DNA from: Corynebacterium sp. CNCTC7651
GTDB lineage: Bacteria; Actinomycetota; Actinomycetes; Mycobacteriales; Mycobacteriaceae
Assembly: GCF_021496665.1 (NCBI RefSeq)
Contig: NZ_CP071246.1
Span: 806,001-870,000 of the forward strand
Direction of reading: 5' to 3'
Length of the DNA: 64,000 nucleotides
Of this stretch, positions 7,410 through 54,943 are shown one piece after another (position 1 is the first letter of the stretch; each line of letters begins with the position of its first letter). The position numbers were made by a program, and so were the translations under genes. The notes beneath the pieces are model-generated. The model was not told where the DNA came from. It worked only from the letters and a program-made list of their open reading frames with translations, and ran no database searches.

Positions 7410-8726
7410 ATGACAACGCCCTCCCAACCCCAAGACCGGGCCGCCGCCAGCCCAACCAGCAACGCCGCCAGCGCAACCAGCAACGCCGCCAGCCCAGCCG
7501 CCAAGCCGCCGATCCCGCGCGAGATCTGGGTACTCTCCATCGCGGCATTCATCATCGCGCTCGGATACGGCTTCATTGCTCCGGTGCTGCCGCAGTTTGC
7601 GGCGAGCTTCAACGTCTCTATGGCCGCTGCCGGCGCAGTGATCTCCGCCTTCGCGCTGGCCAGGCTGATCGGCGCACCGGGGGCGGGGCGCCTGGTGGAC
7701 AAGCTGGGGTCCCGCAAGGTCTACATCACGGGCCTGCTCATCGTGGCAGTTGGCACGTTCTTCGTCGCGTTTGCCCAGGCGTACTGGCACATTCTGGGCT
7801 TAAGGTTCTTTGCGGGCTTCGGCTCCACAATGTTCACGCTGTCGGCCCAGGCGTTGATCGTGCGGGTGACGCCTCCGAGTATCCGCGGCCGCGCCAACGC
7901 CATCTACGCCACAGCGTTTCTGCTGGGCAACATCTTCGGTCCGATCATCGGCGCGGCGCTGTCGTTCTTGGGATTCCGCGTGCCGTTCGCGGTGTACGGC
8001 TTGGGCGTGGCGCTGGCTGCGCTGATCGTATGGCTGCTCACCAATCCGAAGCCGGGAGCACAGCCGCTGCCGCCCATGAAGCCGGCAATGCAGTTCAGCG
8101 ACGCCTGGCGCCTGCCCACGTACAAGGCGGTGTTGGCGGTGGCGTTTGTGTCTGGATTCGTCAACATGGGCGCGCGGGTGGCTATCGTGCCTCTGTTCGC
8201 GGCGTCGGTGTTTGAGCACGGCGCCGCTGCGTCAGGCCTTGCGCTCACCGCCTACGCAATCGGCACTGCAATTGCGCTGCAGTTTTCCGGCAAGCTGGCG
8301 GACAAGCACGGCCGCCGGCCCCTGATCATCGCGGGCCTGGCCTCCATCGCCGGGTTTACCGCGGTGCTCGGCCTTGCGTCGAGCTTCTGGCCGCTCATGA
8401 TCATCTCCGCCTTCGCCGGCGTGGGCGGCGGCCTGATGGGCCCGTCGATGCAGGCGGTGGTGGCGGACATCATCGGCAACGACCGCTCAGGCGGCAAAGT
8501 GCTTTCCACGTACCAGATGGCTCAGGATGCCGGCCAGATTCTTGCACCGGTTGCCATCGGCTGGGTGGCGCAGACGGCGGGCTTCACCGTCGCGTTCGCC
8601 GTCTGCGGCGCTATCGCGGCGGTCGCGCTTTTGGCCTGGCTTAGGATGGGCGCCGAAACCCTGCCCGCGCTTGCGACCCAAAACACCAAGCAACCAGCCA
8701 CAAAACCAGCAAAGGCCCAGCAATGA
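7410..8726 (+). CDS. MFS transporter, drug:H+ antiporter-like
   Basis: A 438-residue major facilitator with about 12 hydrophobic segments after a 30-residue Ala/Ser/Thr-rich cytoplasmic N-terminus. The loop motif RLIGAPGAGRLVDKLGSRK between helices 2 and 3 is the MFS motif A, and the second half repeats it as GKLADKHGRRP. The family exports small toxic compounds or sugars using the proton gradient; the substrate cannot be told. The ATG at 7410 lies ten bases after a TACGCT -10 box, suggesting a leaderless or short-leader transcript. Its 3' end overlaps the nucleoside hydrolase start by four bases (ATGA), so the two are translationally coupled. Confidence 0.9.
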   Translation: MTTPSQPQDRAAASPTSNAASATSNAASPAAKPPIPREIWVLSIAAFIIALGYGFIAPVLPQFAASFNVSMAAAGAVISAFALARLIGAPGAGRLVDKLGSRKVYITGLLIVAVGTFFVAFAQAYWHILGLRFFAGFGSTMFTLSAQALIVRVTPPSIRGRANAIYATAFLLGNIFGPIIGAALSFLGFRVPFAVYGLGVALAALIVWLLTNPKPGAQPLPPMKPAMQFSDAWRLPTYKAVLAVAFVSGFVNMGARVAIVPLFAASVFEHGAAASGLALTAYAIGTAIALQFSGKLADKHGRRPLIIAGLASIAGFTAVLGLASSFWPLMIISAFAGVGGGLMGPSMQAVVADIIGNDRSGGKVLSTYQMAQDAGQILAPVAIGWVAQTAGFTVAFAVCGAIAAVALLAWLRMGAETLPALATQNTKQPATKPAKAQQ

Positions 8727-9721
8727 CCCGCGTGATCTTGGACTGCGACCCAGGCATCGACGACACGTACGCCCTGATCTACCTGGCCGCCGCGAACCAC
8801 GCGGGCCAGCTGCAGCTGGATTGCGTCACCACCACGGCGGGCAACGTAGGTGCGGAGCAGTGCGCCCGCAACGCCGCCTGGGTGCTCGCACAGTGCGGGC
8901 TTCGCACCATCCCCATCGCAGCCGGTCTGCCCGGCCCGCTGAAACTCCCGCTCACCACCACTCCGGAGACGCACGGGGATACCGGCTTGGGCTACGTCAC
9001 CGCCCCGCAGCGCCATGTGGAGCACGACTGGGACATGCTCTGGATCGACGCAATCGAGCGGGGGACGGAGGACCTCCACCTCATTGTCACCGGCCCCATG
9101 ACTAACCTCGCCGCTTTCGCGCGCCTGCACCCGCAGTACTTCGCCAAGCTCCAACACGTCACCGTGATGGGCGGTGCGGTGAATTACCCGGGCAACACCA
9201 CGCCCACGGCGGAGTGGAACTTCTGGGTGGACCCGCACGCAGCCCAGGAGGTGTTCGCCGCCGCCCACACGCCCATCACACTCTGCCCGCTGAACGCCAC
9301 GGAGCGGATGATTTTGGAGCCGGGGCGGTTGGAAGGGATCGTCGATAAGCTTGGGCCCGCGCCGATTGCGGCGGACCTGGCTGAGATCACGCGCTTCTAC
9401 TTCGAGTTCCACGAGGAAGTGGGGGAGGGCTACCGCGCGCAGATTCATGATCTGCTGACCGTGCTCCTTGCGCTCGGCGCGGTGGATTCGGGCCATTGCT
9501 TGGCGACGCTCGATGTAGAGCCAACCAGCGAACTCACCCGCGGCACGGTGGTGGCGGACCTGAAGGGGATGTGGGAGCGCGAGCCGAACGCGCGCGTGAT
9601 CACCGCCGCGGACACCGCGAAGGCGTGGGAAGTATTCGAGCACGCCTGCGAGATCCACAACCAGTTCTTCTCCGGCGACGCGGCGCTTGCGGCCGGGTAC
9701 CACCGCCAGGCGGAGGACTAG
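8723..9721 (+). CDS. Inosine-uridine preferring nucleoside hydrolase
   Basis: A 332-residue enzyme that hydrolyses the N-glycosidic bond of ribonucleosides to base plus ribose, for salvage. The Ca2+-binding signature DCDPGIDD lies at residues 6-13. VTGPMTNLA (about 113-121), VMGGAV and the WNFWVDPHAA motif are also typical. Its coupling to the MFS gene (ATGA overlap) suggests a nucleoside or base uptake/efflux and salvage unit, and the ECF importer follows 118 bases downstream. The exact nucleoside preference cannot be told. Confidence 0.93.
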   Translation: MTRVILDCDPGIDDTYALIYLAAANHAGQLQLDCVTTTAGNVGAEQCARNAAWVLAQCGLRTIPIAAGLPGPLKLPLTTTPETHGDTGLGYVTAPQRHVEHDWDMLWIDAIERGTEDLHLIVTGPMTNLAAFARLHPQYFAKLQHVTVMGGAVNYPGNTTPTAEWNFWVDPHAAQEVFAAAHTPITLCPLNATERMILEPGRLEGIVDKLGPAPIAADLAEITRFYFEFHEEVGEGYRAQIHDLLTVLLALGAVDSGHCLATLDVEPTSELTRGTVVADLKGMWEREPNARVITAADTAKAWEVFEHACEIHNQFFSGDAALAAGYHRQAED

Positions 9722-12617: not shown

Positions 12618-12649
12618 CTTGGAGAGTCAAATGCTTGGAGAGTCAAATG
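12618..12649. repeat. Perfect 16-bp tandem duplication of RBS and ATG
   Basis: CTTGGAGAGTCAAATG occurs twice back to back (12618-12633 and 12634-12649). Each copy contains a GGAGAG ribosome-binding site and an ATG. The second ATG (12647) starts the Z1 gene. The first (12631) is in another frame and opens a seven-codon ORF that ends at 12654 inside the Z1 gene. The unit, 16 bp, is not a multiple of three. Confidence 0.9.
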
Positions 12650-12654
12650 GTTGA
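12631..12654 (+). promoter_or_regulatory. Upstream mini-ORF overlapping Z1 start
   Basis: ATG CTT GGA GAG TCA AAT GGT TGA, created by the 16-bp duplication, with its own GGAGAG ribosome-binding site. It overlaps the true Z1 start by eight bases, so ribosomes finishing it could re-initiate there, or it could lower Z1 translation. Whether it is translated is inference. Confidence 0.5.
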
Positions 12655-15289
12655 AGTTGATGAGATGACGTATGGCCTTTTCCACAGCGCCGCAATTAGA
12701 TTTGGTCCCGATGTAGCGATTCAGCGATTTAAGCTCCTGGGCGTTGTTTCCGATGATGTCGCCGATGTGATGGTCGAGCGCTATAAGACAGGAGTCGAAA
12801 GAGTTGTGGGTGTCGGGGGACCTGTCATCGCGAAAGGCGATGAATCTTGGTACCCGGGGGCGCAGCCGGGGGATCCCAGCTGGTCCAACTTCGTGGAGTA
12901 CATGGATAAAGAACGTCGCTCTGATCAGGTGCCAGAGGTGCACAGGGCTAGTGACATGATTATTGGCCTGACACCAGATCCCAAGAATGATCCGCGACGG
13001 GCAAAAGGTCTGGTTGTCGGTTTTGTGCAAAGTGGCAAGACAACCAACTTCACAGCGGTTGCAGCCAAGGCTGCGGACCTTGATTACCGAATGGTCATTG
13101 TTCTCGCAGGCATCCACAACTCGCTCCGAAAGCAGACTCAGGAACGATTGGAAGAAGTTCTCCTCGCCGGCGATCAGGGTTCGCGCTGGATTTCGGTAAC
13201 GCGACCAGAACAGGATTTTGACCTAGTCAAACTCAACGAGGACAAGCGGCAAGGTGGAAAAGCGTTTAATGCTGCGTCAATGCTCAGCGCACAAAATAAG
13301 ACGCTGCTCTTAGTTGTAAAAAAGAACCACGTCGTTTTGAGGAAGCTGAGGGATTGGCTTTCCGCAGACGGTGCACAAACTCAACTTGAAAATAACGCTG
13401 TTCTAGTCATCGACGATGAGGCAGATCAAGCGAGCGTCGAAACCCGGACTATAAACCCGTTGATTCGCGAAATACTGCAATTGATGCCGCGCAGTACTTA
13501 CATCGGTTACACAGCCACACCCTTTGCGAACGTTTTCATCAATCCATTCGAGGCTGATGACCTTTACCCAAGCGATTTTATTTACCCACTTCCACGACCC
13601 GAAGGGTATTTCGGTCCAGAAAAGCTGTTTGGGCGAGATGTTCTAGACGGAACCGGCGACGACTTCGACGGCTACGACATGATTCGAATCATCCCTGAGG
13701 AAGACGAGTTTCTCTATAGGCCGCGGAAACGTGCCGAAGTACCAGACTTTGAGCCCACAGTCACGGACGAATTGCAGGATGCAATTTACTGGTTCTGCAT
13801 GGCGACTGCAGCTCGATGGCATCGCCGGCAGTCAGCGAAAGAGCATGTCGACAGTTCCATGCTGGTGCACACCTCCTTCCAGATCGAGGTTCACGAGAAG
13901 TTTCGAGATGTTATCAGCGGGGAGGTTCGACGACTCAAAGCTGGAATCCGACGCGGTGATAAAGAGCTGCTTGCACGTTTGCGCAAGCAATGGGAAACGG
14001 AAACTGAACGCGTAAAGGCCTCAGATTTCGGTATCACAGGCGAGGGATTTGACGAGGTGCTCGGCAATCTCCCCGCGGTGCTCAATGATGTGAAGGTGAT
14101 CGTCGAAAATAGTGGGAGCGACGAGCGTCTCGAATATGAAAAGGGCAAATCAAACACGATCATTGCGATTGGAGGAAACACACTTTCCCGTGGCATCACA
14201 CTCAAAGGTCTGATTTCGAGTGTGTTCATCAGGCCGACAAATACTTACGACACACTGCTGCAGATGGGGCGCTGGTTTGGTTTCAGAACCGGCTACGAGG
14301 ATCTTCCTCGTATTTGGATGACTGACCAGCTGCGTCGTTCGTTCAGACACCTTTCCTTGGTTGAACACGAGATGCGTAGTGACATGGAGGTTTACGAGCG
14401 TCAAAACCTCACTCCGAGAGACGCCGCAGTTCGAATTCGCACCCATCCTTCGCTCCGCATCACAGCGAAGATGGGAGCTGCTGTTCCGGCCAGGACCTCC
14501 TTTAGCGGAGCGCGTCTTCAAGTTCGTGAATATGAACGGAGAAACCAAGAAGAGATTATTTCCAACTGGGAAGCTGGTGAGACGCTCATCAACGACGCGA
14601 GGCGTCGCACCAAGGAAGAGGAGATCGATGGTGGTCTGCTTTATCGGAATGTTCCCGTTGCCTCCATACTCGAATTTCTGGATTCCTACGTAATCAGCGC
14701 GGAACAGGCTGATATGGACACCGAAATGATCAAGAAGTACATCCAGGAGCGCCTCCGTTCAGAGGCTCAGCAGCTAAGCCACTGGAATGTCGCGGTCCGT
14801 GCCGGTGAGAGCGCAGAGAAAACCTTCGCGGGCCGAAAGATGAAGTTCGTGAATCGTGCACCCTTGATTGGTTCTAAAGGAACACTTGCCGATATCGGCA
14901 CCCTAATGGTTCCCCAGGATCTCGTTATCGATATACCCGGCATCTCTTCAACTGAAGCGCGCAGCAAGAAAGAAGCAGGCATGAAGGAGCTGCGTTGGAA
15001 GACAGAAGAGGTGAAGGACAAGGGTCTGCTTGTTCTCTACCCGATTGATGCGAATAGTAAGCCGAAGACGGGTAGTCCCACGCGCGAGAACATGAGCGCC
15101 GAACACGACATCCTGGGACTTGGTCTGGTCTTCCCCCGAGCGAATTACTCGGAAAGCGAAAAGGCAAAGATGCAGGTCACTCACCAGTGGGTGGATCTGG
15201 CAAGCGTCGAAACAAGCGCACCTGAGGTTGAGCTTGCCGAGAGCCCAGAGATTGTGGACAACTCGGTCGAGGTCTACGGGGAGTCTTAA
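12647..15289 (+). CDS. Z1 domain superfamily II helicase-like ATPase (defence)
   Basis: An 880-residue protein of the Z1 family, found with MutL/MORC-like ATPases in restriction and antiviral loci. Walker A is GFVQSGKTT (about 122-130), Walker B VIDDEADQ (about 252-259), motif III GYTATPF (about 285-291), and the C-terminal helicase-like segment contains GGNTLSRGITLKGL (about 507) and QMGRWFGFR. It probably remodels or translocates on DNA for the nuclease encoded next, which starts two bases after its stop. I chose the ATG at 12647 because the conserved-looking sequence starts there and a GGAGAG precedes it; the frame is open further upstream. Base composition is clearly more AT-rich than in the flanking host genes. 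Confidence 0.88.
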   Translation: MVEVDEMTYGLFHSAAIRFGPDVAIQRFKLLGVVSDDVADVMVERYKTGVERVVGVGGPVIAKGDESWYPGAQPGDPSWSNFVEYMDKERRSDQVPEVHRASDMIIGLTPDPKNDPRRAKGLVVGFVQSGKTTNFTAVAAKAADLDYRMVIVLAGIHNSLRKQTQERLEEVLLAGDQGSRWISVTRPEQDFDLVKLNEDKRQGGKAFNAASMLSAQNKTLLLVVKKNHVVLRKLRDWLSADGAQTQLENNAVLVIDDEADQASVETRTINPLIREILQLMPRSTYIGYTATPFANVFINPFEADDLYPSDFIYPLPRPEGYFGPEKLFGRDVLDGTGDDFDGYDMIRIIPEEDEFLYRPRKRAEVPDFEPTVTDELQDAIYWFCMATAARWHRRQSAKEHVDSSMLVHTSFQIEVHEKFRDVISGEVRRLKAGIRRGDKELLARLRKQWETETERVKASDFGITGEGFDEVLGNLPAVLNDVKVIVENSGSDERLEYEKGKSNTIIAIGGNTLSRGITLKGLISSVFIRPTNTYDTLLQMGRWFGFRTGYEDLPRIWMTDQLRRSFRHLSLVEHEMRSDMEVYERQNLTPRDAAVRIRTHPSLRITAKMGAAVPARTSFSGARLQVREYERRNQEEIISNWEAGETLINDARRRTKEEEIDGGLLYRNVPVASILEFLDSYVISAEQADMDTEMIKKYIQERLRSEAQQLSHWNVAVRAGESAEKTFAGRKMKFVNRAPLIGSKGTLADIGTLMVPQDLVIDIPGISSTEARSKKEAGMKELRWKTEEVKDKGLLVLYPIDANSKPKTGSPTRENMSAEHDILGLGLVFPRANYSESEKAKMQVTHQWVDLASVETSAPEVELAESPEIVDNSVEVYGES

Positions 15290-15291
15290 GA

Positions 15292-16290
15292 ATGGTTTCG
15301 CGTACACCTATAACAGATGCCTGGCACCTCCTAAAGAATCCCGGGAATCTCGGCGAACTTCAAGTGGCGGATTCCTGGAACGCAGTTCGCTTGGGAGTTC
15401 AAACGAATGGCAGAGAAGTGCTCGCGGCTATCGACGGCGAAAACGGAAGACACCTCTTGGTTCCGGCATTGAAACAAAGGTACCCGCTCGCGCCGCCGAG
15501 TGCGCTTTCTGTAGAGGTTGCGCACCAGAGTTTCAGATTTTTCGATGGTACCGCCGAGTCAGGTCGGTTTCTGGATATTTTTTGTTCTGACCAGCGACTA
15601 TATGAACAGTTCGACCACGTGATAATGGCCGTCTTAGAGGCCATCCGCGGGGGTGGTGACGGTGCAGATGTAGCGCTAATTGAAGTCGCTCGCTGGCGAC
15701 GACTCTTCGCTACCTTAGCGAGGTTGTCGCCCCTCTCTGTCGAAGAGAAGGTTGGGCTCTTCGCTGAGCTAACCGTGTTAGATGCCTTGAATAACGGAAT
15801 GGAGGGTTTCGATCCCTCCTGGTGGACTGGACCTCTGAGGCAGCCTCACGATTTCGAACTGCCTTCTCTCTCCATTGAAGTTAAAGCCATTACCGACGGA
15901 TCCGATCAAGTGCGAATCAACGGTTTGCGACAGCTGGACTCGGTTGATGGAAAAGACCTCAACTTAATACTCGCGAGCGTGATGTTTTCTCATGAAGGTT
16001 TTACGATCGGAGAACTGCTTGAGCAAATCGTTTCCGGAGATCCCCAAGAACAATCATTGCGTGAGCTTGCGGCTAAAGCCGGGATCTACGGTACAAGCGA
16101 TGACACTGATCGGATGATCATTACCGGGTTGTACCATGCTGAGGTCGAGGAGACTTTTCCTCGGATCACTCCAGCGGTTCTGGGTACGGAAGCGATTTCG
16201 AGAGTAAATTATTCGATTGATCTAGGCGCAGTACTCGCGCACGCAATGGCTATCCAGCCGGCCGATTTAGTAGGGTTCATCGATGAGTAG
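15292..16290 (+). CDS. PD-(D/E)XK nuclease, DUF4420-type (defence)
   Basis: A 332-residue protein resembling the DUF4420/PD-(D/E)XK motif family that accompanies Z1 proteins. The putative catalytic residues read Glu159 (FAEL), Asp187 (PHDFEL) and Glu196-Val-Lys198 (IEVK), followed by a QVRINGLRQL helix, typical of this nuclease fold. It is the likely DNA-cutting subunit. Its start lies two bases after the Z1 stop and its 3' end overlaps the GHKL ATPase gene by eight bases, so all three are translated together. Which DNA is cut is unknown; protection by the downstream methyltransferase is a reasonable inference. Confidence 0.82.
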   Translation: MVSRTPITDAWHLLKNPGNLGELQVADSWNAVRLGVQTNGREVLAAIDGENGRHLLVPALKQRYPLAPPSALSVEVAHQSFRFFDGTAESGRFLDIFCSDQRLYEQFDHVIMAVLEAIRGGGDGADVALIEVARWRRLFATLARLSPLSVEEKVGLFAELTVLDALNNGMEGFDPSWWTGPLRQPHDFELPSLSIEVKAITDGSDQVRINGLRQLDSVDGKDLNLILASVMFSHEGFTIGELLEQIVSGDPQEQSLRELAAKAGIYGTSDDTDRMIITGLYHAEVEETFPRITPAVLGTEAISRVNYSIDLGAVLAHAMAIQPADLVGFIDE

Positions 16291-18170
16291 CCCGCAGTGG
16301 TGGTCGCAGCCGATGCGCCCAGAGGGCGACAACACCGGCAGCGGAATCAAGAATCAGCTTGGGCGCCCAGACCGCTTGGGCGAATACGCAATTCTGGTTC
16401 GAGAAGCAGTGCAGAACTCATGGGACGCTCGTCGAGCCGGTGCTAATGTGCGCTTTTCGATTAGTCTGCGCACGCTGGGAGAGTTTGCACCTGCTTGGCG
16501 AGTGCATCTGGGGTCCTCGGCGCTCCCGGAAGAACAAAGCTCTATCCTTACAAACCTCTCCAAACAAACACCAGTTCTTATTGTTTCTGATCGAGGCACT
16601 ACCGGTTTGGGTGGGCCCCTTCGATCGGACCGCTCAAACACCTCTGGCGAAGTCGCAAACTTCGTTCAATTTATGAGAAACGTGGGTGAGGCTAGGGATT
16701 CCGAACTCGGAGGGGGAACATATGGCTATGGCAAGGGAATCTTCTATCGAATAAGTTCCGCATCTGCCATCTTGGTAGATTCGAAGAATGGGACAGATGG
16801 TCGGGCCCACCGGCGTCTCATGGATCTTGGTAGATTCGAAGAATGGGACAGATGGTCGGGCCCACCGGCGTCTCATGGGGGCCGCTCTGAGTGATGCCTT
16901 TGATTCCCATGACGGGAGAAGGTTTACCGGCCGCCATTGGTGGGGAGTCGTCAACGACGGAGTTCCTGATCCGGTACTCGATGAAGATGCAGCATTGCTC
17001 TCAGCTGAGCTCGGGCTTCCTGGATTCAAGGAGGATGAAACCGGCACCGATATTGTGATTATCGCCCCAGATCTCCAACTGGAGTCAGGTGATGACGACT
17101 TGGAAAGTCTGGGTGAACGGATACGCGGCCACATCTATTGGCATCTTTGGCCGAAGTTTACGACCGCTCAGAGACCTCATGGCATCAGGTTTAATGTTTC
17201 CGTGGAAGACCGGCTTCTCGATTTTCCAGACGTGGCCACTGTGCCGGTGATTCGCAATCTAGCCAAATCATTGGACGACATTGCGCGACGCCAAGGTGCC
17301 GATTATGAGTTAAAGAAGTACCTTCCGAATTCACTGGGCGAGTTTGCCGTTGACTATGTCATCAAGGCACCAGCCCCTATTCGAGATACCTCAATCATCT
17401 CGATCATGAGCTATTCCGAAATCGATGCCCCGTATCGCCATATCGCCAGGATGAGGCAAGCAGAACTCGTTGTCGACTACTTTAAGGCCGCTCCTATGCC
17501 GACGACTGACGTTGGCTACGTCGGGACGTTCCGAAGCAGCGCCTTCGCAGACGAAGCCTTTGCGGCCGCTGAACCTCCGACGCATGATGCCTGGTCGACG
17601 GCAGGTTTGACGGGGAATAACCTGGGGATTGTTCGCGGTGCTAAGAGCTTTCTTGAGAATGAAACTAATGCGTTAGTGGCCGCCCGGTCGGGGGCCCGGT
17701 CCAAGCTCGTTCAAGGCTTGGGCAAGATTTCAAATGAATTGGGAAATTTCCTCGCGCCGGTCATCGAGCCAAGCAACCCCTCGGAGCCCTCGGCGACACG
17801 GCCAAGTCGCTCAGGGAGCAGAACGAAAAAGTCCTTCAGGGATTTGGGACAACAGCCTATCCGGCTTGAAATGGGTAGACCCTACGCCGGGCATTTAGTA
17901 CAAATAGGTGATTCTGTTGCTCCAGGTTCTCACCTGGAGGCCACCGCATTTGTGAAACTGGCAAACGGAGGACGGGAGTCGCCGGACTCTGCGCCTGCTG
18001 GCTCCGACCAACCACGGTTCCGCGGCTGGTTTGTCCCGGATACTGGAGACCTCCTATCAACTGACTACCGCATTTCGATCGAGAACGTAGCCGGTTTAGT
18101 AATCGAGGCTAGGTTCGAACATGTTGCGGGTGCAGCAATTAAGACCTATGTCGAGGGGAAGAATGTTTAA
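16283..18170 (+). pseudogene. MutL/MORC-like GHKL ATPase, frameshifted by 55-bp duplication
   Basis: The N-terminal frame (16283-16894) shows the GHKL ATPase motifs: N-box REAVQNSWDAR (Glu41, Asn45), G1 box DRGTTGLGG (Asp103) and lid GGGTYGYGKG (143-152). A perfect 55-bp tandem duplication (16769-16878) then shifts the frame and adds a 23-residue foreign tail before a TGA. The rest of the protein continues in another frame (16788-18170). Removing one copy restores a single 610-residue ORF, matching the MORC/MutL-like ATPases of Z1-linked systems. As it stands the gene yields only a truncated ATPase domain. The duplication is exact and so recent; it could revert by slippage or recombination. 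Confidence 0.88.
16769..16878. repeat. Perfect 55-bp tandem duplication in GHKL ATPase gene
   Basis: Copies at 16769-16823 and 16824-16878 are identical over 55 bases and differ from their flanks immediately outside. Since 55 is not a multiple of three, the duplication breaks the reading frame. Confidence 0.97.
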
Positions 18171-19056
18171 GGCAATCGAGGCCCCATACCTAACTCCGGA
18201 TCCTGCGGTAGTGGCGGCAGAGAATTGGCATCTTGAAACCGGAGATGAACGGATACCATTGCCAGATCAATTCGAATCTTGGTCGCAAGGCACTTCATTC
18301 CGGTTAACGCGACGTATTGAGATCGATCTGCCTACTCTCCTTTCTCAATCTGGTCTTCCAAATACGGCCGAGATTGGCGTTAGCGTTTCATGGATGAGTA
18401 GCTCCACGAAGATCCGACGTCGGGTGTTCAGATCTGCAATCAGAGACGAGCCGATCTCGATCATCGCTAACCTAAACGGTGACGAAATTAGTGGTGAAGT
18501 AGATCTCCGCACGACGGTGATCCTGAACAGTTCTATCGAGGGAACTGACCCATGGGTTGCGTCCGAAGTGGGCTCAATCCTTCTTGCCGAAAGACGCGTC
18601 TTTGGACTTGGCTTTAGCGAGTCAGGATTCCCCATGTCGGTCGTAGATTTTGCGCTTACAACTCTGCCGATCGAGGCATCCTGGCACTTAGAGACCTCCG
18701 TAGTTCTTGAAGATCGCTTTAGCTCAAGCTTTCAGGTTCTGGTCAACGAGCGTGATGAAAAGCTGATCAAGGCCATGGAAGCCGATAAGCCAACCAAAGA
18801 ACAAAACTTGATTCTTCAAAATCTAATGGCGGGTGTTATGGAGGAGACACTTCGATTGGCATACGCATTGCGCAGCAGTGGAGAGTTGGCGTTGGACGGC
18901 TATGAGTACGGATCAGTCGGCGAGGTCCTCTCGAACCTGGTCAAGAGAACAGGAGACGTGTCGTTGGACTCACTCACGGACCCTTCGCAGCTGGCACTAG
19001 CTCGCGCACAATTCGAAGCCATGGCTAGGACATTGGGTGTCGGGAGGCAATTTTAA
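18163..19056 (+). CDS. Defence-operon protein of unknown function
   Basis: A 297-residue protein that I do not recognise. The N-terminal two thirds look beta-rich (alternating hydrophobics, e.g. SFRLTRRIEIDLPTLL and EISGEVDLRTTVIL). The last third looks helical (MEADKPTKEQNLILQNLMAGVMEE...). There are no membrane segments and no obvious catalytic motif. The ATG at 18163 overlaps the stop of the GHKL gene by eight bases and follows GAGGGGA; its stop overlaps the next start (TAATG). Its position matches that of accessory subunits in MZA-like systems. A structural or DNA-recognition role is a guess. Confidence 0.75.
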   Translation: MFKAIEAPYLTPDPAVVAAENWHLETGDERIPLPDQFESWSQGTSFRLTRRIEIDLPTLLSQSGLPNTAEIGVSVSWMSSSTKIRRRVFRSAIRDEPISIIANLNGDEISGEVDLRTTVILNSSIEGTDPWVASEVGSILLAERRVFGLGFSESGFPMSVVDFALTTLPIEASWHLETSVVLEDRFSSSFQVLVNERDEKLIKAMEADKPTKEQNLILQNLMAGVMEETLRLAYALRSSGELALDGYEYGSVGEVLSNLVKRTGDVSLDSLTDPSQLALARAQFEAMARTLGVGRQF

Positions 19057-19862
19057 TGAATAGCCCTCTGATATGGCCGAGAATGTCCCGAAATCAAGCG
19101 GAGGAGGTTTTTTCTGAGGTCCAGCTAGATGCAGGTCCAAAGATTGAGTTGGGAACGAACCAATTCGACTTTGACGGAATTGGATCTCGAGTCAATCGAA
19201 GCGATCTACAGGAAATGCGCGATGAATTATTGGAAATCGCTTCTCAATTTGGCTTCAAGGCTAGGCATGGTTATCAGCAGGTTTCCTATCCAGATCGAGA
19301 AACTGCACGGTCCATAGACCGGGCTTTTGTCGCTCGGTTCCATGACCTGGCTCCAATGCGTTGGGCCGAAGCAGGTTCCCGTGAAGTGTGGTCTTGGTTC
19401 GCTTTGGCTCTGCTGCCAGATTTAACCCATTGGCGGTGGAAGGCTGCAGTCGCAAAGAAAGCGGGAGCCCGAGAGGGGGAGTGGTACAAGCCCCGGTGGA
19501 TTGGCTCAGATCTGACACGGCATACCTGGGCAAGATATTGGTGGAGGGCAGTGCAGTTCGAGGTAGCACCGGAGCTGCTAATGGAGCTTAATGAACATGA
19601 TCTGAACCACCTTCTTGAGAGAGCAGACACTCTGGGAGCTAATCCCGGTCTAATGGTGAGTTTCGGACGCCAGCTTCTTGACCTCAACGAAACTTTCTCC
19701 GGTGATGATTCCGTGTCGCGCCGAGACATCTTCGACGATTCAGCCCGTCGAATGCTGCGGCGTCTCGCGTTTGTAGACGACATCGCTCTAGATGAGGAAG
19801 AGTCTCAATTGCTAGTCAGTGATTTTATGAACGAAACGAAGACACGGTTAAGCAAGAAGTAG
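19056..19862 (+). CDS. DUF6339-like protein of defence operon
   Basis: A 268-residue protein resembling DUF6339 proteins, which have no known activity but recur near Z1/MutL-like defence genes. It is helical and tryptophan-rich in the middle (REVWSWFALALLPDLTHWRW, residues 108-127, and RHTWARYWWRAVQFEV). No catalytic residues are recognisable. Its ATG shares a base with the preceding stop, and a 68-base gap separates it from the methyltransferase. Assignment to DUF6339 is from memory of the family pattern and is moderate. Confidence 0.68.
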   Translation: MNSPLIWPRMSRNQAEEVFSEVQLDAGPKIELGTNQFDFDGIGSRVNRSDLQEMRDELLEIASQFGFKARHGYQQVSYPDRETARSIDRAFVARFHDLAPMRWAEAGSREVWSWFALALLPDLTHWRWKAAVAKKAGAREGEWYKPRWIGSDLTRHTWARYWWRAVQFEVAPELLMELNEHDLNHLLERADTLGANPGLMVSFGRQLLDLNETFSGDDSVSRRDIFDDSARRMLRRLAFVDDIALDEEESQLLVSDFMNETKTRLSKK

Positions 19863-19930: not shown

Positions 19931-21076
19931 ATGTCTTCTAGAGCCGAGGGTGGATCCAGGTGCCGCGTCGCCCTAGATCGCTGGTTCTCGAAACAGGGTG
20001 ATGCAGGTTTCGATATCGCGAATAAGATTATCGGCACTTTGCCTGATGACGTGGATGAATGGGAGACCAAACTAAAGGAATCCCACAAGAGTCTAGACCA
20101 TAAGGTTGTGGACTTGTTCTGCGGATGTGGGGGATTGTCTCTTGGTTTCCAGACCGCGGGTTTCGAAATCCTAGCTGGCTATGACTATTGGGATAAAGCT
20201 ATTTCGACTTACAACATGAACGTAGGTGACCATGCGAAGTTGCTAGATCTCAAAGACCTCGACGAATGCATTTCCGAATTGAGTAGTTGGGGAGAGCCGG
20301 AAAATTTTCCATCTATCATCGGCGGCCCCCCGTGTCAGGACTTCTCACTTGCCGGGAAACGAGAAGAAGATAAGAATGCGGATCTGACCATGAAGTTCGC
20401 AAAACTGGTTAGTCACTTTTCGCCTCCGTTTTTCGTAATGGAGAACGTACCTAATGCTGATCGCTTCCCGACTTATCGAAAAGCGATTGCGCACCTTCAA
20501 GACGAACAGTTTCACATTGAAAAATATGTGATTGATGCCTCAAAGCTGGGAGTACCGCAGAAGCGAAAGCGACTCATCGCTATCGGCTCGAAGGATAAAT
20601 ATCTTGCCAAGTGGATCGGACTGGTTCTTCAAAGCGCACTTGAGACCCGTTCGCAGATGTTGCCGCCGTCGCTCGATGATTGGTTCGGACCCGGCTATTT
20701 CCCTGAACTCTATTACCGGCATCCTAGGACCTACGAACGGAGGGGCCTCTTCTCGTCTCACGAACCGTCTCCAACTATTCGTGGGGTCAACCGCCCTATG
20801 CCGGGAAACTACAAGTTCATTCCGGCGGACCACCTTGTCATCAAGGAGACAAAAGGTTTGGAAGAGGTGACTCCCGAAGTGGAAAATGCGGTTAGGGCAG
20901 AGGCGAATCGGCTAGACACCAATCTCCGGAAGCAGATTCAAACGTTTCCAAAGGATTTTCGAATGGGCGCAGCTCAGACTGACAACGAGCAGATGATTGG
21001 CAATGCGGTTCCAGTCATGCTTGGGTATTTCGTGGCTGCGGTCATCGCTGAAGTTCTTAGCAAACTTGATTACTAG
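19931..21076 (+). CDS. DNA cytosine-5 methyltransferase
   Basis: A 381-residue C5 methyltransferase. Motif I is DLFCGCGGLSLGF (from residue 61), motif IV GGPPCQDFS with nucleophile Cys135, motif VI MENV, motif VIII QKRKRLI and motif X IGNAVPV. The target-recognition stretch between VIII and IX is short, and the recognised sequence is unknown. It probably marks self DNA so the Z1/PD-(D/E)XK/GHKL set ignores it. The start is uncertain: the ATG at 19931 has no clear ribosome-binding site and about 55 residues precede motif I. It converges on the helicase gene with a four-base overlap. Confidence 0.93.
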   Translation: MSSRAEGGSRCRVALDRWFSKQGDAGFDIANKIIGTLPDDVDEWETKLKESHKSLDHKVVDLFCGCGGLSLGFQTAGFEILAGYDYWDKAISTYNMNVGDHAKLLDLKDLDECISELSSWGEPENFPSIIGGPPCQDFSLAGKREEDKNADLTMKFAKLVSHFSPPFFVMENVPNADRFPTYRKAIAHLQDEQFHIEKYVIDASKLGVPQKRKRLIAIGSKDKYLAKWIGLVLQSALETRSQMLPPSLDDWFGPGYFPELYYRHPRTYERRGLFSSHEPSPTIRGVNRPMPGNYKFIPADHLVIKETKGLEEVTPEVENAVRAEANRLDTNLRKQIQTFPKDFRMGAAQTDNEQMIGNAVPVMLGYFVAAVIAEVLSKLDY

Positions 21077-24000
21077 ATTGCCTCTCTCTGCTTTGCGAAC
21101 AGTTCGGCAGGCATCGGTCTGCGAAGAGCCCAGTCGATTTGAATTGGCTTTTCCCCTGTGTGGGACTTTGGATCAACTTGTCCGAGAAGCTGGTAAGCAT
21201 TCGCTGTTCCTATGCTGGAGTTCCTTTCAGTTCGGACACTCAGCAAATTTGTAATTCCAAGAGTAGCCCCGTTGAGGTAGCGCTCCGCCTTCTTGGAAGT
21301 AAGAGAAACGGTCGCAGGCGAGATCCAGTGGAATGAATCCGCCGAGGTCGGGTAATCCTTATATCTGCGATTTTCGTTGAAGTTTCGAGCGTCTTTTTCG
21401 AGAGTCACGAAAATTAATACGGTTGACGAGTCCGAAATAAAAGTTTCGCCCTCCCTTGGGATGTTAAGCAGCGTGGGGAGGTCATTTTGGCTCAAAGCTG
21501 CTGTCATCTCGCCCACTGAGTAGTGGGCATGTGTGAAGAGTACGCCCTGGCCAGGTCCAGAAAGAGGTAAGGGCGTGTACGCGGCGCGGTCAAGTTGGTA
21601 ACTGAAAATCTCAGAAAGCTCGTCTGCGATGGACGGAACCGCTCTAATTAATTCCAGTGCCGCATCCCAATCTGTAGGTGGTTGAATGTTGGCCAGGCGG
21701 CCGAAGAACTGAATTACGAGCATGCGCGCGAATGCACGATCACATTCACTAAGAGACGAGTAGGGCGCTGCGCCAGGCGCAACCAGACTGGCGTATGCAT
21801 CAGCGCGGACCGGGTCATCTACGTGGAGAAATGACCTCAGGCGCCCTAGAAGAAAGTCCTCGAGCTCGTTCGGTGGAACTGTCCCCACAACATTTGAAGT
21901 CCGAAGTAGCCGAGTCCAACCACCTTGTTTCCGATTGCGGTAGATGTCTTCTATTTGAAGGCCGGTATTCGCCAAGAACTGAGACAGGTTAGTCGTAGCT
22001 TCCTGCTCGACAAGTGACCGAACCTTCCTGATATCCGGGTTCGCTAGTTGACGGATGTTACGAAGAACTCGCTCTTGAGTCACGCGGTCAAGCTGGATGC
22101 TTGATCCTCCTGGGAGATTTGGGAACTCGTCCTCTACCTCACGAGCCAGATGAGTTCCTCTTTTTCCTACTAGTGCGGAGAATCTGGCATGGAAGTCGAA
22201 CAACTTGTGCTGCTCTCCTATGAAATCTAGAACTGTGCACACCTTGCCAGGACGCTTCCTCAAACCTCGGCCCAGTTGCTGCAGGAAAACGATCGGACTT
22301 TCTGTGGGGCGGAGCATTAGGAGAGTATTGACTTCTGGGATGTCCACACCTTCGTTGAAAAGGTCGACTGTAAACAGCGCTTTCAACGTGCCGTGCCTCA
22401 AATCAGTGATGGCTTTTTCGCGTACGCTCCAATCCGTTCTCGAAGTTATTGCTGCTGAGGGTACCCCGAAAGCCGAAAAGCGATTTGCCATGTATTCCGC
22501 GTGGTCAATGCTGACGCAAAAGCCCAGCGCCTTTACCTCATCGAGGTCAAACTGGCGTTTCCGCAACTCGTTGAGTACGAGGCGAACACGGGAATCTCCT
22601 AACTTGATGTAAAACTCGCTCAGGTCCGCAACGTTGTAGGCTTTACTAGTGCGTGACCACTTCACATCGCTCAGGTCAGTTTCGTCGTTAACACCGTAGT
22701 AGTGCATTGGCGCGACGAGCCCGAGTTGGAGGGCATCCCACAACCTCAGCTCATACGCAACGCGATAGTTGAAGAAACTCTGGACGTTGATACCGTCGCC
22801 CCGTTCTGGTGTCGCTGTTAGCCCGAGGAGCTCGGCTGGTTGGACGTAGTCCAACAGTTTTCGGTACGTCGAGGCTTCTGCGTGGTGGAACTCATCGATA
22901 ACAACGATGTCGAAATGGTCCGGTGCGAAACTGTCGAGCACTTTGCTGAGACTCTGGATTGTGGCGAAGACTTGAGTTCCTTGTGAGGGCGAGGTATAGC
23001 CGTCGAGGCGCTCTCCAAAATTTGGATCTTGCAGCACCTCTCTGTATGTGCGAACGGCCTGTTTGAGTAGCTCGTTGCGGTGCGCAACGAAGAGAAGAGT
23101 TGGATACCTTTTGGATTCCTCGACCATGCGTCGGTAATCAAGGGCTGCGACGACTGTCTTACCAGTACCCGTAGCGGCGACAATGAGGTTTCGGTGGCGG
23201 CCGTGCATGCGGCGCTCGGCCGCTAGAGCTTCAAGCATCGCATCTTGATAGGGGAACGGTTCCACGCGCAACCCTGAAAGTTCGATGCCGTATTCAGTTC
23301 CGCGCTTCGCAATCTGAAGTGACTGCTTTAGACGGGCCTGGTCTTGCGACGGCACATACGAGGGGTAGTGGCTGTCCTTCCAATACGTATCGAAGACCGC
23401 CTCAAACTTGTTCAGAATCGCCGGTGCCGCTGTTCGCGAAGCCCGAACGTTCCACTCGACACCGTCGATTAGCGCGGAACTCGAAAGATTGGAGCTGCCG
23501 ATGTAGGCGGTATCAAAACCGGAGTTTCGCCTGAAGAGCCAAGCTTTCGCATGCAATCTGGTGTCTTGCGATTCGTAGCCCACTTTAACTTGCGCGCCGA
23601 ACTCCTCGACGAGGCGGTTGATTGCCTGAATCTCCGACGCGCCGCAATATGTCGAAGTAATTACGCGGAGGGGAATCTGGTTGTCACGCAAGTATTCGAG
23701 TTGATCGCGGATAACTGAGATGCCGGAGTTTTTAATGAAAGCGCACAAGAGATCGACGCTGTCTGCGGTGCGGATCTCACGTTTGATTTCTGCGGCCATG
23801 CTGAGGTCATTATTCGCGTTAGTCAAAAGGGACGCACCGGTAAGTGGGGTCGGAAGGATCGCCGGAGGATCACCTAGGCCCGTTTTGTATACCGCATACA
23901 ACAACTCTTCTGACTCCACGGCATCATCTGGATCGATGAGTTGAGCGAGGGCATTAATGAGTCCAACTCGTTCGAGAGGAGTTTTAGTCCGAGACAGCTT

Positions 24001-24195
24001 CTGCGCGAGGTGTTCAGCAATTACCCGAGTGATCGCCTCCGTATAGCGTTCCTGCAGGTCTTCGTCTACGGGCGCGATTCGACTCCGTGTGAAAGGATCC
24101 GCATTCTCAGTGGCAGCGATGCGCTCTCGGATCCTCCGCGTTACAGCGGTTTCATAAACACCTTCGGGGAGAGCTTCGTTTGCCCTGCTTGTCAT
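21073..24195 (-). CDS. PLD-DEAD/DEAH helicase with DUF3427 (defence)
   Basis: A 1040-residue multidomain protein. An N-terminal phospholipase-D-like nuclease domain has the single HKD-type motif HAKAWLF...GSSNLSSSAL (about 215-245). Then comes an SF2 helicase with AATGTGKTVVAA (about 345), VIDEFHHAEAS (about 435), LTATPERGDG and LGRGLRKRPGK, and a C-terminal DUF3427 region. Such proteins occur in defence islands and are thought to unwind or cut foreign DNA. The ATG at 24195 overlaps the NUDIX stop (ATGA), showing translational coupling. Composition is AT-rich like the rest of the island. Only one HKD motif is visible, so the PLD domain probably dimerises. Confidence 0.88.
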   Translation of the reverse strand: MTSRANEALPEGVYETAVTRRIRERIAATENADPFTRSRIAPVDEDLQERYTEAITRVIAEHLAQKLSRTKTPLERVGLINALAQLIDPDDAVESEELLYAVYKTGLGDPPAILPTPLTGASLLTNANNDLSMAAEIKREIRTADSVDLLCAFIKNSGISVIRDQLEYLRDNQIPLRVITSTYCGASEIQAINRLVEEFGAQVKVGYESQDTRLHAKAWLFRRNSGFDTAYIGSSNLSSSALIDGVEWNVRASRTAAPAILNKFEAVFDTYWKDSHYPSYVPSQDQARLKQSLQIAKRGTEYGIELSGLRVEPFPYQDAMLEALAAERRMHGRHRNLIVAATGTGKTVVAALDYRRMVEESKRYPTLLFVAHRNELLKQAVRTYREVLQDPNFGERLDGYTSPSQGTQVFATIQSLSKVLDSFAPDHFDIVVIDEFHHAEASTYRKLLDYVQPAELLGLTATPERGDGINVQSFFNYRVAYELRLWDALQLGLVAPMHYYGVNDETDLSDVKWSRTSKAYNVADLSEFYIKLGDSRVRLVLNELRKRQFDLDEVKALGFCVSIDHAEYMANRFSAFGVPSAAITSRTDWSVREKAITDLRHGTLKALFTVDLFNEGVDIPEVNTLLMLRPTESPIVFLQQLGRGLRKRPGKVCTVLDFIGEQHKLFDFHARFSALVGKRGTHLAREVEDEFPNLPGGSSIQLDRVTQERVLRNIRQLANPDIRKVRSLVEQEATTNLSQFLANTGLQIEDIYRNRKQGGWTRLLRTSNVVGTVPPNELEDFLLGRLRSFLHVDDPVRADAYASLVAPGAAPYSSLSECDRAFARMLVIQFFGRLANIQPPTDWDAALELIRAVPSIADELSEIFSYQLDRAAYTPLPLSGPGQGVLFTHAHYSVGEMTAALSQNDLPTLLNIPREGETFISDSSTVLIFVTLEKDARNFNENRRYKDYPTSADSFHWISPATVSLTSKKAERYLNGATLGITNLLSVRTERNSSIGTANAYQLLGQVDPKSHTGEKPIQIDWALRRPMPAELFAKQREAI

Positions 24196-24599
24196 TGGCA
24201 TCCGATCTGTTGCAGCATTCCTACCGCTTCCACGTCGGCGGGTGCCCACTCGAGGTTGCCGAGATCAGCGGGCGCCACCCAGCGGATTTCTGCATGCTCG
24301 ACAGCGGCTGGGGTTACGTCGAGCAAGGTGCAGTAGTAGGTGGAGAGGTTCACGATGCCGAAGTCGTACTCGTGGCTTGTGGTGACGACGTGGTTTCCGA
24401 CCTCGACGCGAATGCCAAGTTCTTCGAGAAGCTCGCGGGCGAGTGACTCCTCAGGGGTCTCGCCGGGCTCAATCCTGCCGCCGGGAAATTCCCACATGCC
24501 GGCCATCGACATTCCCGGCCCGCGTTGCGCTGCGAGGACAAGACCGTCCTTCACGAGGACAGCTCCGACGACGTCGATCTGTTTAGGCATGGGGCTCAT
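24192..24599 (-). CDS. NUDIX hydrolase (MutT-like)
   Basis: A 135-residue MutT-like pyrophosphatase. The Nudix box GGRIEPGETPEESLARELLEEL is complete (about residues 40-61), with the metal-binding REXXEE-type glutamates. Housekeeping MutT enzymes clean 8-oxo-dGTP. Here the gene is coupled to the helicase by ATGA, so it may instead supply or destroy a nucleotide for that defence module. Its composition is more like the host than the helicase is, so it may be a native gene at the insertion border. Start at the first ATG; a second lies nine bases later. Confidence 0.85.
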   Translation of the reverse strand: MSPMPKQIDVVGAVLVKDGLVLAAQRGPGMSMAGMWEFPGGRIEPGETPEESLARELLEELGIRVEVGNHVVTTSHEYDFGIVNLSTYYCTLLDVTPAAVEHAEIRWVAPADLGNLEWAPADVEAVGMLQQIGCQ

Positions 24600-24675: not shown

Positions 24676-25616
24676 CTAGTCGGTGAGACCGGTGGACTCG
24701 ACTACCTCGCGCAGGGTCTTGGCGGAGGAGGCGAACTTCTCGTACTCCTCCTCGGAGAGGCGCAGCTCCACAACGTTGCGCACGCCGTGGCGGTTGAGGA
24801 TGGTGGGGGTGCCGATGTAGATGTCCTGGAGCGCGTACTCGCCTTGGAGCAGTGCGGAGACCGGCAGGGCCACATCCTCGTTGCGCAGGATTGCGCGGGT
24901 GATGCGGGCAAGCGCGGAGCCGATGCCGAAGGAGGTGTTGCCCTTGCGCTTGATGATGTCGTAGGCGGCGTCGCGGGTCTTGACAAAGAGCTCATCGATC
25001 TTGTCGTAGATCTCCGGATCGTGCTCTGCCTCCTTCTCCAGCATGGAAGCCAGCGGGACGCCGGCGACGGTGCCGGTGGAGATGACAGGCAGCTCAGAAT
25101 CGCCGTGCTCGCCGATGATGTAGTTGTGGACCGCGGACGGGGCGAGGTTGAAGTGCTTGCCCAGGTTGTGGCGCCAGCGGGCGGTGTCCAGCACGGTGCC
25201 GGAGCCGATGACCTGGTTGGACGGCAGGCCGGTCTGCTTCCAGGTGACGTAGGTGAGCACGGGGAGTTGATGGAGTCGAAGATCTTCACGTTGCGGGCGA
25301 CTAGGTCCAGGCGGGTCTCACCCTCGCGCTGGGCAACGCCGGCGCAGTTGACGATGAGGGCGGCATCGCGGCAGTCCTCGTAGGTGCCGACGGTGACCTT
25401 GATGTTGTTGCCGGAGAACGGGACGGAGTGGGACAGGTCCTCAACCTGTGCCCAGGTGAGCTCCTCGTTGAGGTCGATGATTGCCAGGTGGTCCGTCAGG
25501 CCCTGGTTGAGGATGGCGTAGGCGTAGGCGATGCCGACGGCGCCTGCGCCGATGAGCACGACCTTGGTGCCGGGAGTGACGGGTGCCGGGTGGAGGTTGG
25601 GTTCTGGGGTCTGCAT
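24676..25616 (-). pseudogene. ldh: L-lactate dehydrogenase, internal deletion and frameshift
   Basis: NAD-dependent L-lactate dehydrogenase (pyruvate to lactate), broken. The N-terminal part (from 25616) has the Rossmann motif IGAGAVGIAYAYA and the substrate arginine in GETRLDLVARN. It runs to about residue 116 (KIFDSI), then the frame is lost. The C-terminal part, starting LTYVTWKQTG near 25256 in another frame, includes IGSGTVLD and the proton-relay histidine in GEHGDSE. Compared with C. glutamicum Ldh, about 22 codons between these parts are replaced by 11 bases, a net loss near 55 nt. The lost segment holds the conserved VATNPVD asparagine. An intact gene would encode about 331 residues. 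Confidence 0.85.
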
Positions 25617-50663: not shown

Positions 50664-52245
50664 CTACAACTCCTCATTCGGTCCGGCGAGACGGTCAGTT
50701 GCGTTGTTCGGGTCCAAGCCGATGCCCGGGCCGCGGCCCGGGATGCCCTCGCGGCGGGCTTCAGCCAAAAGGTCCTGCGCCTCGTCCGTATCCCACCACT
50801 GGCGGAAAGACTTCTTCGGCGGCACAGCCACGTCGCGGTACTCGGTCCAGCCGCTGATCGGCGGCGGCATGGTGCTGATCTCGCCGTTGCCGCCGCCAAG
50901 GAGGCGGCCCAGGGCAACCATGCGCACGGCGCGGTTCCACAGACCAGCGTTGCCCCACAGGAGGCTGATCATGCCGAAGGCCTTGGACTCCAGGAACGGG
51001 GTCTCATTCTTCACCTTCTGGTGGCGCAGCTCCAAGCAGGATGTCCGTGATCGGGATGCGCACCGGGCACACCTCGTCGCAGCGGCCGCACAGGGAGGAC
51101 GCGAACGGCAGGGAGCCGTTCGGGTCATCCGTGGAGTCGATGCCGGTCAGCTGCGGGGTGAGGATGGCGCCGATCGGGCCCGGGTAGGTGGAGCCGTAGG
51201 AGTGGCCGCCTGCGCGCTCGTAGACCGGGCAAACGTTCAGGCAGGCGGAGCAGCGGATGCACTTCAGTGCCTCGCGGCCGATCTCGCTGGACAGGGCAGC
51301 GGTGCGGCCGTTGTCGATCAGCACGATGTGGAAGTTCTGCGGGCCGTCGCCCTCCGTCACACCAGTCCATAGGGAGGTGTACGGGTTCATGCGCTCGCCG
51401 GTGGAGGAGCGCGGCAGGAGCTGGAGGAACACGCCGAGATCGTCGTACGTCGGCAAGAGCTTCTCAATGCCCATGACGGAGATCAGGGTCTCCGGCAGGG
51501 TCAGGCACATGCGGCCGTTGCCCTCAGACTCCACGATGGAGACGGTGCCGGTCTCGGCGATACCGAAGTTCACGCCGGAGATGGCCACCTTGGCCTTCAT
51601 GAACTGCTCGCGCAGGTAGGAGCGCGCAGCCTCGGCCAGCTCCGGCGGGTTGGCGGTCAGGGTGTCATCCGTGTTCGGCATCTTCTCCACGAAGATGTCG
51701 CGGATCTCGGCGCGGTTACGGTGGATCGCCGGCACCAGGATGTGGGACGGGAAATCCTCGCCCAGCTGGACAATCAGCTCCGCCAGGTCGGTCTCCTGGG
51801 CGAAGATGCCGCGCTTCTCCAGCTCTTCGTTGAGCGCGATCTCCTGGGTGGCCATGGACTTGATCTTGACCACGTTCTTCTCGCCCGTCTCCTCGATGAG
51901 GCGGGCGATGATCTCGTTCGCCTCCTTGGAGTCGCGGGCCCAGTGCACGTGGCCGCCGCGGGCGGTGACGTTGCGCTCAAACTCCTCCAGCAGCTCCGGC
52001 ATGCGCGCAGCAACGTCCTGCTTGATGGTGGAGCCGGCGGTGCGCAGATCCTGCCAGTCCGCGACCTCATCCACCACGCCCTGGCGCTTCACGCGGATGG
52101 TGGTGGTGGCGTAGTTGAGATTGCGGCGCTTGGTTACGTTGTCCAGCTCGCGGTGGGCCGCTTTCTGGAACTTTTCGCTGCCGCGCAGGTGGTTCGGGCC
52201 GACGGCGTGCGGCGGCATCGTGGGCTTGCCAAGTGCAACTTTCAC
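50664..52245 (-). pseudogene. lutB: Lactate utilisation iron-sulfur protein B, +1 frameshift
   Basis: The LUD/ferredoxin subunit of LutABC. The GTG at 52245 overlaps the lutA stop. The frame covers the LUD domain and both cluster motifs, CIRCSACLNVCPVY and CGRCDEVCPVR. At about 51032 one extra C (G on the coding strand) turns DILLELRHQ into DILLGAAPPEGEE and a stop at 51004, giving 413 residues. The true C-terminus (ELRHQKVKNETPFLESKAFG...) lies in the next frame to 50664. Deleting one base restores 526 residues. The truncated protein keeps all cluster cysteines, so partial activity cannot be ruled out. Confidence 0.85.
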
Positions 52246-53027
52246 AGCATCTTCTCCTTCGAGTAAGCGGCCGACGTCGGCGTCCACGGGTGCTCCTTGG
52301 TGGAAGCCAGGATCTCAGCCATGTGCACGGCGCGGATACCGCTGTGCTGGCGGCTCATCGCGCCCGCGATGTTCATCAGGCAGGAAGAGTCACCCGCGGT
52401 GACGTACTCCGCCTTCGTGTCCTTGATGTGGCGGGTCTTGTCCGACACCATGGCGGCGGAGACCTCGCTCATCTTCACTGCGAAGGTGCCGCCGAAGCCG
52501 CAGCACTCCTCCTCATTCGGCAGGTCCACCAGCTCCAGGCCCTCAACGGCGCGCAGCAGGTCCTTCGGACGCTCGCCCACCTTGATGAAGCGCTTGGAGT
52601 GGCAGGAAGCGTGGTAGGTCACGCGGTGCGGGAAGAACGCACCCACGTCGTAAGTGCCGGCCACGTCCACGATGAACTCGGACAGGTCATAGGTCTTCTT
52701 GGCGGTCTTCTCAGCGCCGTCGGCAAGCGCCTTGCTCCCGTAACGGTCCGCAATGCGCACGTGCTGCTCGCGCACGGCGCCGGTGCAGGAGCCCGAGGGG
52801 ACAACCACGTAGTCGATGGACGGGTCGGAGAAGGTGTCGACGTACGTCTCAATGATCGGCACAGCCTGCTCCTGGTAGCCGGTGTTGACGTGCATCTGGC
52901 CGCAGCAGGTCTGCGACTCCGGGAACACTACTTCGAATCCGAGGCGGGAAAGCACCAGGGCGGAAGCCTTGTGCGCGTCGGGGAAGAGGGCGTCACCGAT
53001 ACAAGTAGAGAACAGCGCTACTCGCAT
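52242..53027 (-). CDS. lutA: Lactate utilisation protein A (CCG domains)
   Basis: A 261-residue protein with two cysteine-rich CCG domains, the catalytic-type subunit of the LutABC L-lactate oxidase. First set is STCIGD, SQTCCGQM and SGSCTG; second is YHASCHSKR, EEECCGFGG and GDSSCLMN. It oxidises L-lactate to pyruvate with LutB and LutC. It is downstream of lctP with a hairpin between. Confidence 0.93.
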   Translation of the reverse strand: MRVALFSTCIGDALFPDAHKASALVLSRLGFEVVFPESQTCCGQMHVNTGYQEQAVPIIETYVDTFSDPSIDYVVVPSGSCTGAVREQHVRIADRYGSKALADGAEKTAKKTYDLSEFIVDVAGTYDVGAFFPHRVTYHASCHSKRFIKVGERPKDLLRAVEGLELVDLPNEEECCGFGGTFAVKMSEVSAAMVSDKTRHIKDTKAEYVTAGDSSCLMNIAGAMSRQHSGIRAVHMAEILASTKEHPWTPTSAAYSKEKML

Positions 53028-53089
53028 GTGGGCTCCTTAAAAGGGGGGTAGGTAAACAGCGGTTATGCGGTCAAGCGATACACAGAAGC

Positions 53090-53113
53090 CCCGCCAACCA
53101 ACTGGTCAGCGGG
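53090..53113 (-). terminator. Hairpin between lctP and lutA
   Basis: CCCGC / GCGGG stem with inner ACCA/TGGT pairing, followed by GCTTCTG on the minus strand. It could partly terminate or process the lctP-lut transcript. Confidence 0.45.
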
Positions 53114-53139
53114 ACTCCAGTGGTACAGGTGTGATTTTA

Positions 53140-54821: not shown

Positions 54822-54943
54822 GAACACGCTCCTTGTAAGCGAGTCGGGAGGTGCGCGCGACGCGACGCGCGCCCGGGGACTGAAGCTACGGAAATCAGGG
54901 CCGGCCGGAACGCGTCTGTGTGGGGCACATCATGCATGCACGG

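Follow-up and report, generated by a model that had tools for sequence, protein, structure and literature searches.

Mza (MzaABCDE) is an anti-phage system, and PADLOC holds models for all five of its proteins. We analysed a window of 64,000 nucleotides from Corynebacterium sp. CNCTC7651 (contig NZ_CP071246.1, positions 806,001 to 870,000 of the forward strand), in which a defence-like operon may in part resemble Mza and contains an ATPase gene broken by an exact 55-base tandem duplication at positions 16769-16878. The MzaC and MzaD models both match this operon, at scores that fall far short of the NCBIfam equivalog cut-offs (370 of 1500 and 67 of 420 bits, respectively); in contrast to Mza, a Dcm-type methyltransferase is present, and no PADLOC match named MzaA, MzaB or MzaE was obtained with the ATPase pieces, two intact ATPase homologs, or the operon proteins of 311 and 268 amino acids (aa). 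CglI and NgoAVII are, in the available text of PMC4267653, ATP-dependent restriction-modification systems of three genes that include a PLD-type nuclease but lack a GHKL ATPase, whereas the operon here carries a DUF4420 nuclease together with a GHKL ATPase, and a PLD-type enzyme lies downstream on the opposite strand. For the ATPase itself the relevant description is that of paraMORC2 proteins, in which N-terminal GHKL motifs are followed by a C-terminal S5 fold with a strongly conserved ExxxH motif in the C-terminal part of S5 (Iyer 2008).

A tandem duplication in a paraMORC2-like ATPase gene

The repeat, identified by direct sequence comparison, and the two open reading frames (ORFs) of the broken gene are arranged as follows.

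16769-16823, + strand: copy 1 of the 55-bp exact tandem duplication, with zero flank homology
16824-16878, + strand: copy 2, identical to copy 1
16283-16894, + strand: N-terminal ORF of the broken paraMORC2-like GHKL ATPase gene, 203 aa, of which ~180 native residues precede an out-of-frame tail
16788-18170, + strand: C-terminal ORF (460 aa) of this gene, read in the next frame, with a conserved ExxxH motif (ORF list and alignment)

The two copies are identical, as the initial annotation had reported, and because the identical run is exactly 55 bases the flank homology is zero on both sides. A search with the unit allowing up to 3 mismatches returned 2 matches in the window and 0 in 100 shuffles; the repeat is far beyond chance. 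A 251-bp query spanning it matched only itself in the 2,453,109-base single-contig genome. Across 464 kb of the host genome (the window plus 20 stretches of 20 kb), the sole other exact tandem repeat with a period of at least 40 lies in a CRISPR-like array. This array, recognised by eye at L129:1742, holds a duplicated repeat-spacer stretch.

The unit length is 1 modulo 3, and the frameshift and 203-residue truncation described initially are both borne out, with the remainder of the ATPase in the next frame and the two ORFs overlapping. Without one unit the gene would measure 611 codons including the stop, which agrees, by length arithmetic only, with the 610-residue gene expected from the loss of one copy; the closest homologs (P0002-P0010) span 597-610 aa, in line with this length. 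Against the whole 600-aa proteins P0002 and P0003, identity is 84-86% for each piece; against P0002 it is 85% for the N piece and 86% for the C piece.

We compared 119 ATPase homologs (the best 120 of 215, without the host's own protein). Both pieces find a match in 116 of them, in every case with an overlap of 16-49 residues between the two matches, and the unit is therefore present once. The annotated proteins of the remaining three have no N part; at the DNA level one of these genes, P0051, is whole in Tsukamurella (L039). Exact tandem repeats with a period of at least 25 were absent from 1.39 Mb of 84 relative loci (the best 80 of 199 found plus four further stretches; L034 and L147 appear to be one same C. 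xerosis locus). The one-copy state anticipated for relatives is thus what these homologs and loci display. Related ATPase genes occur in 28 of the 401 genomes sampled for the family and, within the genus, in 19 of 242, the host's own genome counted; the best other protein match is 86% identical, so no conspecific copy of the operon was seen. Among the relatives, the ATPase gene of G395 is split, with ~1.5 kb between its two matching parts (L149, ~7900-9450), and in Phytohabitans flavus and Microbacterium sp. ACRRU its frame is broken (L074, L103).

The earlier description of the product as the GHKL-type ATPase of a defence-like operon is supported by the alignment of 70 sequences, in which the paraMORC2 GHKL motif residues E31, Q34, N35, D38 and A39, then D93, T96, G98 and G101, and then G134, G135, G138, G140 and K141 are invariant; the N-terminal ORF holds what we take to be the N, G1 and G2 boxes. 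E402 and H406 are invariant in the same sequences and match the paraMORC2 ExxxH motif, which would be expected to lie in S5. Counting against the paraMORC2 GHKL assignment, none of the Pfam models matched the ATPase at E values up to 1. A PDB profile search for the C-terminal S5 fold returned no relevant match.

Lesion or assembly error

A second 55-base event lies 8.4 kb from the ATPase insertion.

24679-25616, − strand: L-lactate dehydrogenase gene, without exactly 55 bases near 25260 relative to 6/6 homologs tested

Because one of these six homologs is 99% identical, a very close relative has the whole gene. To place this event among other frame breaks in the record, reading frames of the relative G476 were compared with the same host regions (116 genes, 43,875 residues; the ATPase gene falls outside this comparison, G476 being without the operon there). 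Fifteen breaks were flagged, and five in the reverse direction (123 genes, 46,372 residues). We judged 8 of the 15 to be inside real genes (8/116, ~7%, 95% interval 3-13%), namely those for 2-oxoglutarate dehydrogenase, an FAD dehydrogenase, lactate permease, LutB, presumptive nicotinate phosphoribosyltransferase, HemW, lactate dehydrogenase and a protein that we take to be RNase PH-like. Their indels range from 1 to 55 bases, and four of the eight are single-base. Apart from lactate dehydrogenase, the sites lie ~1.6 kb before the window (L133), at 50700-54870 in the window, and at L136 ~19348, L141 ~18390, and L142 ~10015 and ~15225. Flagged breaks that were dropped comprised three upstream of the matched domain in HflX, CorC-like and PrxQ frames, one in an ORF without a family match and poorly aligned there, one in an ORF taken as antisense, and two in a single short ORF of a mobile-like segment. 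Among the five reverse flags, one mirrors the lactate dehydrogenase deletion, one apparently, from its position, corresponds to the RNase PH-like break, and three are others.

Given these breaks, including the −55 event, the repeat is one lesion, or one assembly error, among several. We favour, with moderate confidence, a real, unprogrammed loss-of-function duplication; an assembly error ranks close behind. Real lesions are favoured because the breaks cluster in lactate-use genes, with three of the eight broken genes among five such genes (P = 0.002, or 0.003 by blocks; the test is post hoc and two of the names are presumptive). Searches with the two 55-base sites gave no other occurrence in the genome (in one of these searches, scoring covered 40 of 79 first-look candidates), so no repeat explains a contig end.

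Ku and LigD could join staggered, filled-in ends and so give tandem duplications without homology. The host has divergent Ku and LigD genes (L196:3864-7110; G000:C1 near 746 kb), which could have made the homology-free duplication in the ATPase gene. Ku is present in 31/242 genomes of the genus, and non-homologous end joining (NHEJ) looks patchy in Corynebacterium on this gene content. Among the papers listed by our literature search there was no direct case of end-joining making homology-free tandem duplications. Four zero-homology tandem repeats with a period of at least 15 occur in the host. A repeat of 2 x 39 bp, exact, in frame and with no flank homology, stands at L142:15010-15087, at the 5′ end of a gene that we assume to be ClpS-like. 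If the ATPase duplication is real, another costly restriction-like system has been lost by indel, and end-joining in bacteria may be a source of clean tandem duplications.

Several observations weigh against an unprogrammed lesion. Exactly +55 and −55 bases 8.4 kb apart in one record fit an assembly-join error better than chance mutation, and 8/116 broken genes, 2-oxoglutarate dehydrogenase among them, seems high for a healthy isolate. Single-base indels in half of the broken genes are as in an imperfect long-read consensus. G476 carries Ku yet has no zero-homology repeat in 500 kb, so Ku alone does not explain those of the host, and the host excess is weak (P ~0.05, or 0.11 minus the ATPase repeat). 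All four long essential genes tested (family search, 4 families) are in one frame, a weak point against assembly error that says little, since 0.9 breaks are expected and P(0) = 0.42 under random error.

The competing account, raised initially as a possible artefact, holds that the ATPase gene is intact in the cell, with a single copy of the unit, and that a 55-base contig-join overlap was left untrimmed, while a similar join was over-trimmed by 55 bases in lactate dehydrogenase; de Bruijn assemblies commonly use 55 as the k-mer length. It is kept alive by the +55/−55 pair, and is also consistent with the many indel sizes among the broken genes, with the exact zero-homology tandem repeats of other sizes in the record, and with a 5-base tandem repeat that breaks the 2-oxoglutarate dehydrogenase gene. 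Against it stand the finding of no other match to either site, the lack of a second 55-base tandem repeat in the 464 kb, the other event sizes (43, 39, 16, 5 and 4), which are not one k, and the post hoc clustering in lactate-use genes. On balance we regard assembly error as a real possibility that falls somewhat short of an even chance; if it holds, the frameshifts that this single-contig record shows are not to be taken for biology.

Switching and split-gene alternatives

The initial annotation also proposed a phase switch, in which gain or loss of the second copy turns the operon off or on in part of the population, and any exact 55-bp tandem repeat can indeed be lost via slippage or recombination. 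One point of comparison is Mycobacterium tuberculosis, presumably of the same GTDB family as the host. Its promoters contain 57-58 bp tandem units, similar in length to ours, whose copy number varies within isogenic populations (available text of PMC12817950), whereas the present case is a single ORF-internal duplication. According to the titles of Waite 2001 and 2003 as cited in PMC4022640, ORF-internal sequence duplications drive phase variation of pneumococcal capsule genes; here, too, an ORF-internal duplication inactivates a gene, but phase variation is claimed in those titles, whereas here the function is different and reversion only hypothetical. The actinobacterial phage defence system Pgl is phase variable via a G tract in pglX (accessible portion of PMC4365076), and by analogy with these precedents a switch is possible in principle. 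The unit is nevertheless single in all 116 homologs matched by both pieces, the 84 loci are free of exact tandem repeats at periods of at least 25, the one-copy form has no boundary homology from which to re-create the duplication, and the same record has other genes broken by deletions, which cannot revert. We therefore consider a phase switch very unlikely. The related proposal that a homology-free Ku/LigD duplication leaves a paraMORC restriction-like system with an OFF allele that is ready to revert is, in our estimate, equally improbable; if true, NHEJ-bearing corynebacteria may make reversible knock-outs of costly defence genes without a dedicated repeat.

A working split ATPase, in which the ATP-binding boxes are on the N part and translation of the C part begins at ATG 16788 within copy 1, is scarcely credible: both ORFs are open and highly identical to intact P0002, and this ATG opens the C frame in the two-copy arrangement, but the C start lies 106 nt ahead of the N stop, so that ordinary stop-start coupling does not apply, the out-of-frame N tail is absent from 10 aligned homologs, and the Met start common to three database entries reflects the choice of gene call for the one entry examined at the DNA level (P0051, L039). 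Short relatives of the N part number 35 among the matches listed, the best being 71% identical.

The operon and its neighbours

We consider the operon more interesting than the repeat: it is a gene set conserved in actinobacteria that includes two unnamed proteins as well as a putative paraMORC2 ATPase. Counts refer to the 84 relative loci.

12647-15289, + strand: ORF with PF10593 (E 1.7e-66), matched by the MzaC model; 83/84 loci
15292-16290, + strand: DUF4420 PD-(D/E)XK nuclease-like protein (MzaD-like), 332 aa; PF14390 E 8.8e-38, weak MzaD match; 81/84 loci
18121-19056, + strand: conserved operon protein, 311 aa, no family match in Pfam, PADLOC or NCBIfam; 76/84 loci
19056-19862, + strand: conserved operon protein, 268 aa, sub-threshold DUF6339; 78/84 loci
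19931-21076, + strand: C5-cytosine DNA methyltransferase (Dcm type), 381 aa; PF00145 E 2.3e-50; tblastn matches in 47/84 loci
21073-24249, − strand: type IV methyl-directed restriction enzyme-like protein (PLD, helicase and DUF3427), 1058 aa; profile matches

The PLD enzyme is convergent and lies outside the conserved operon, with a partial match in 1/84 loci only. The position of the Dcm methylase beside this convergent methyl-directed nuclease raises a question of compatibility.
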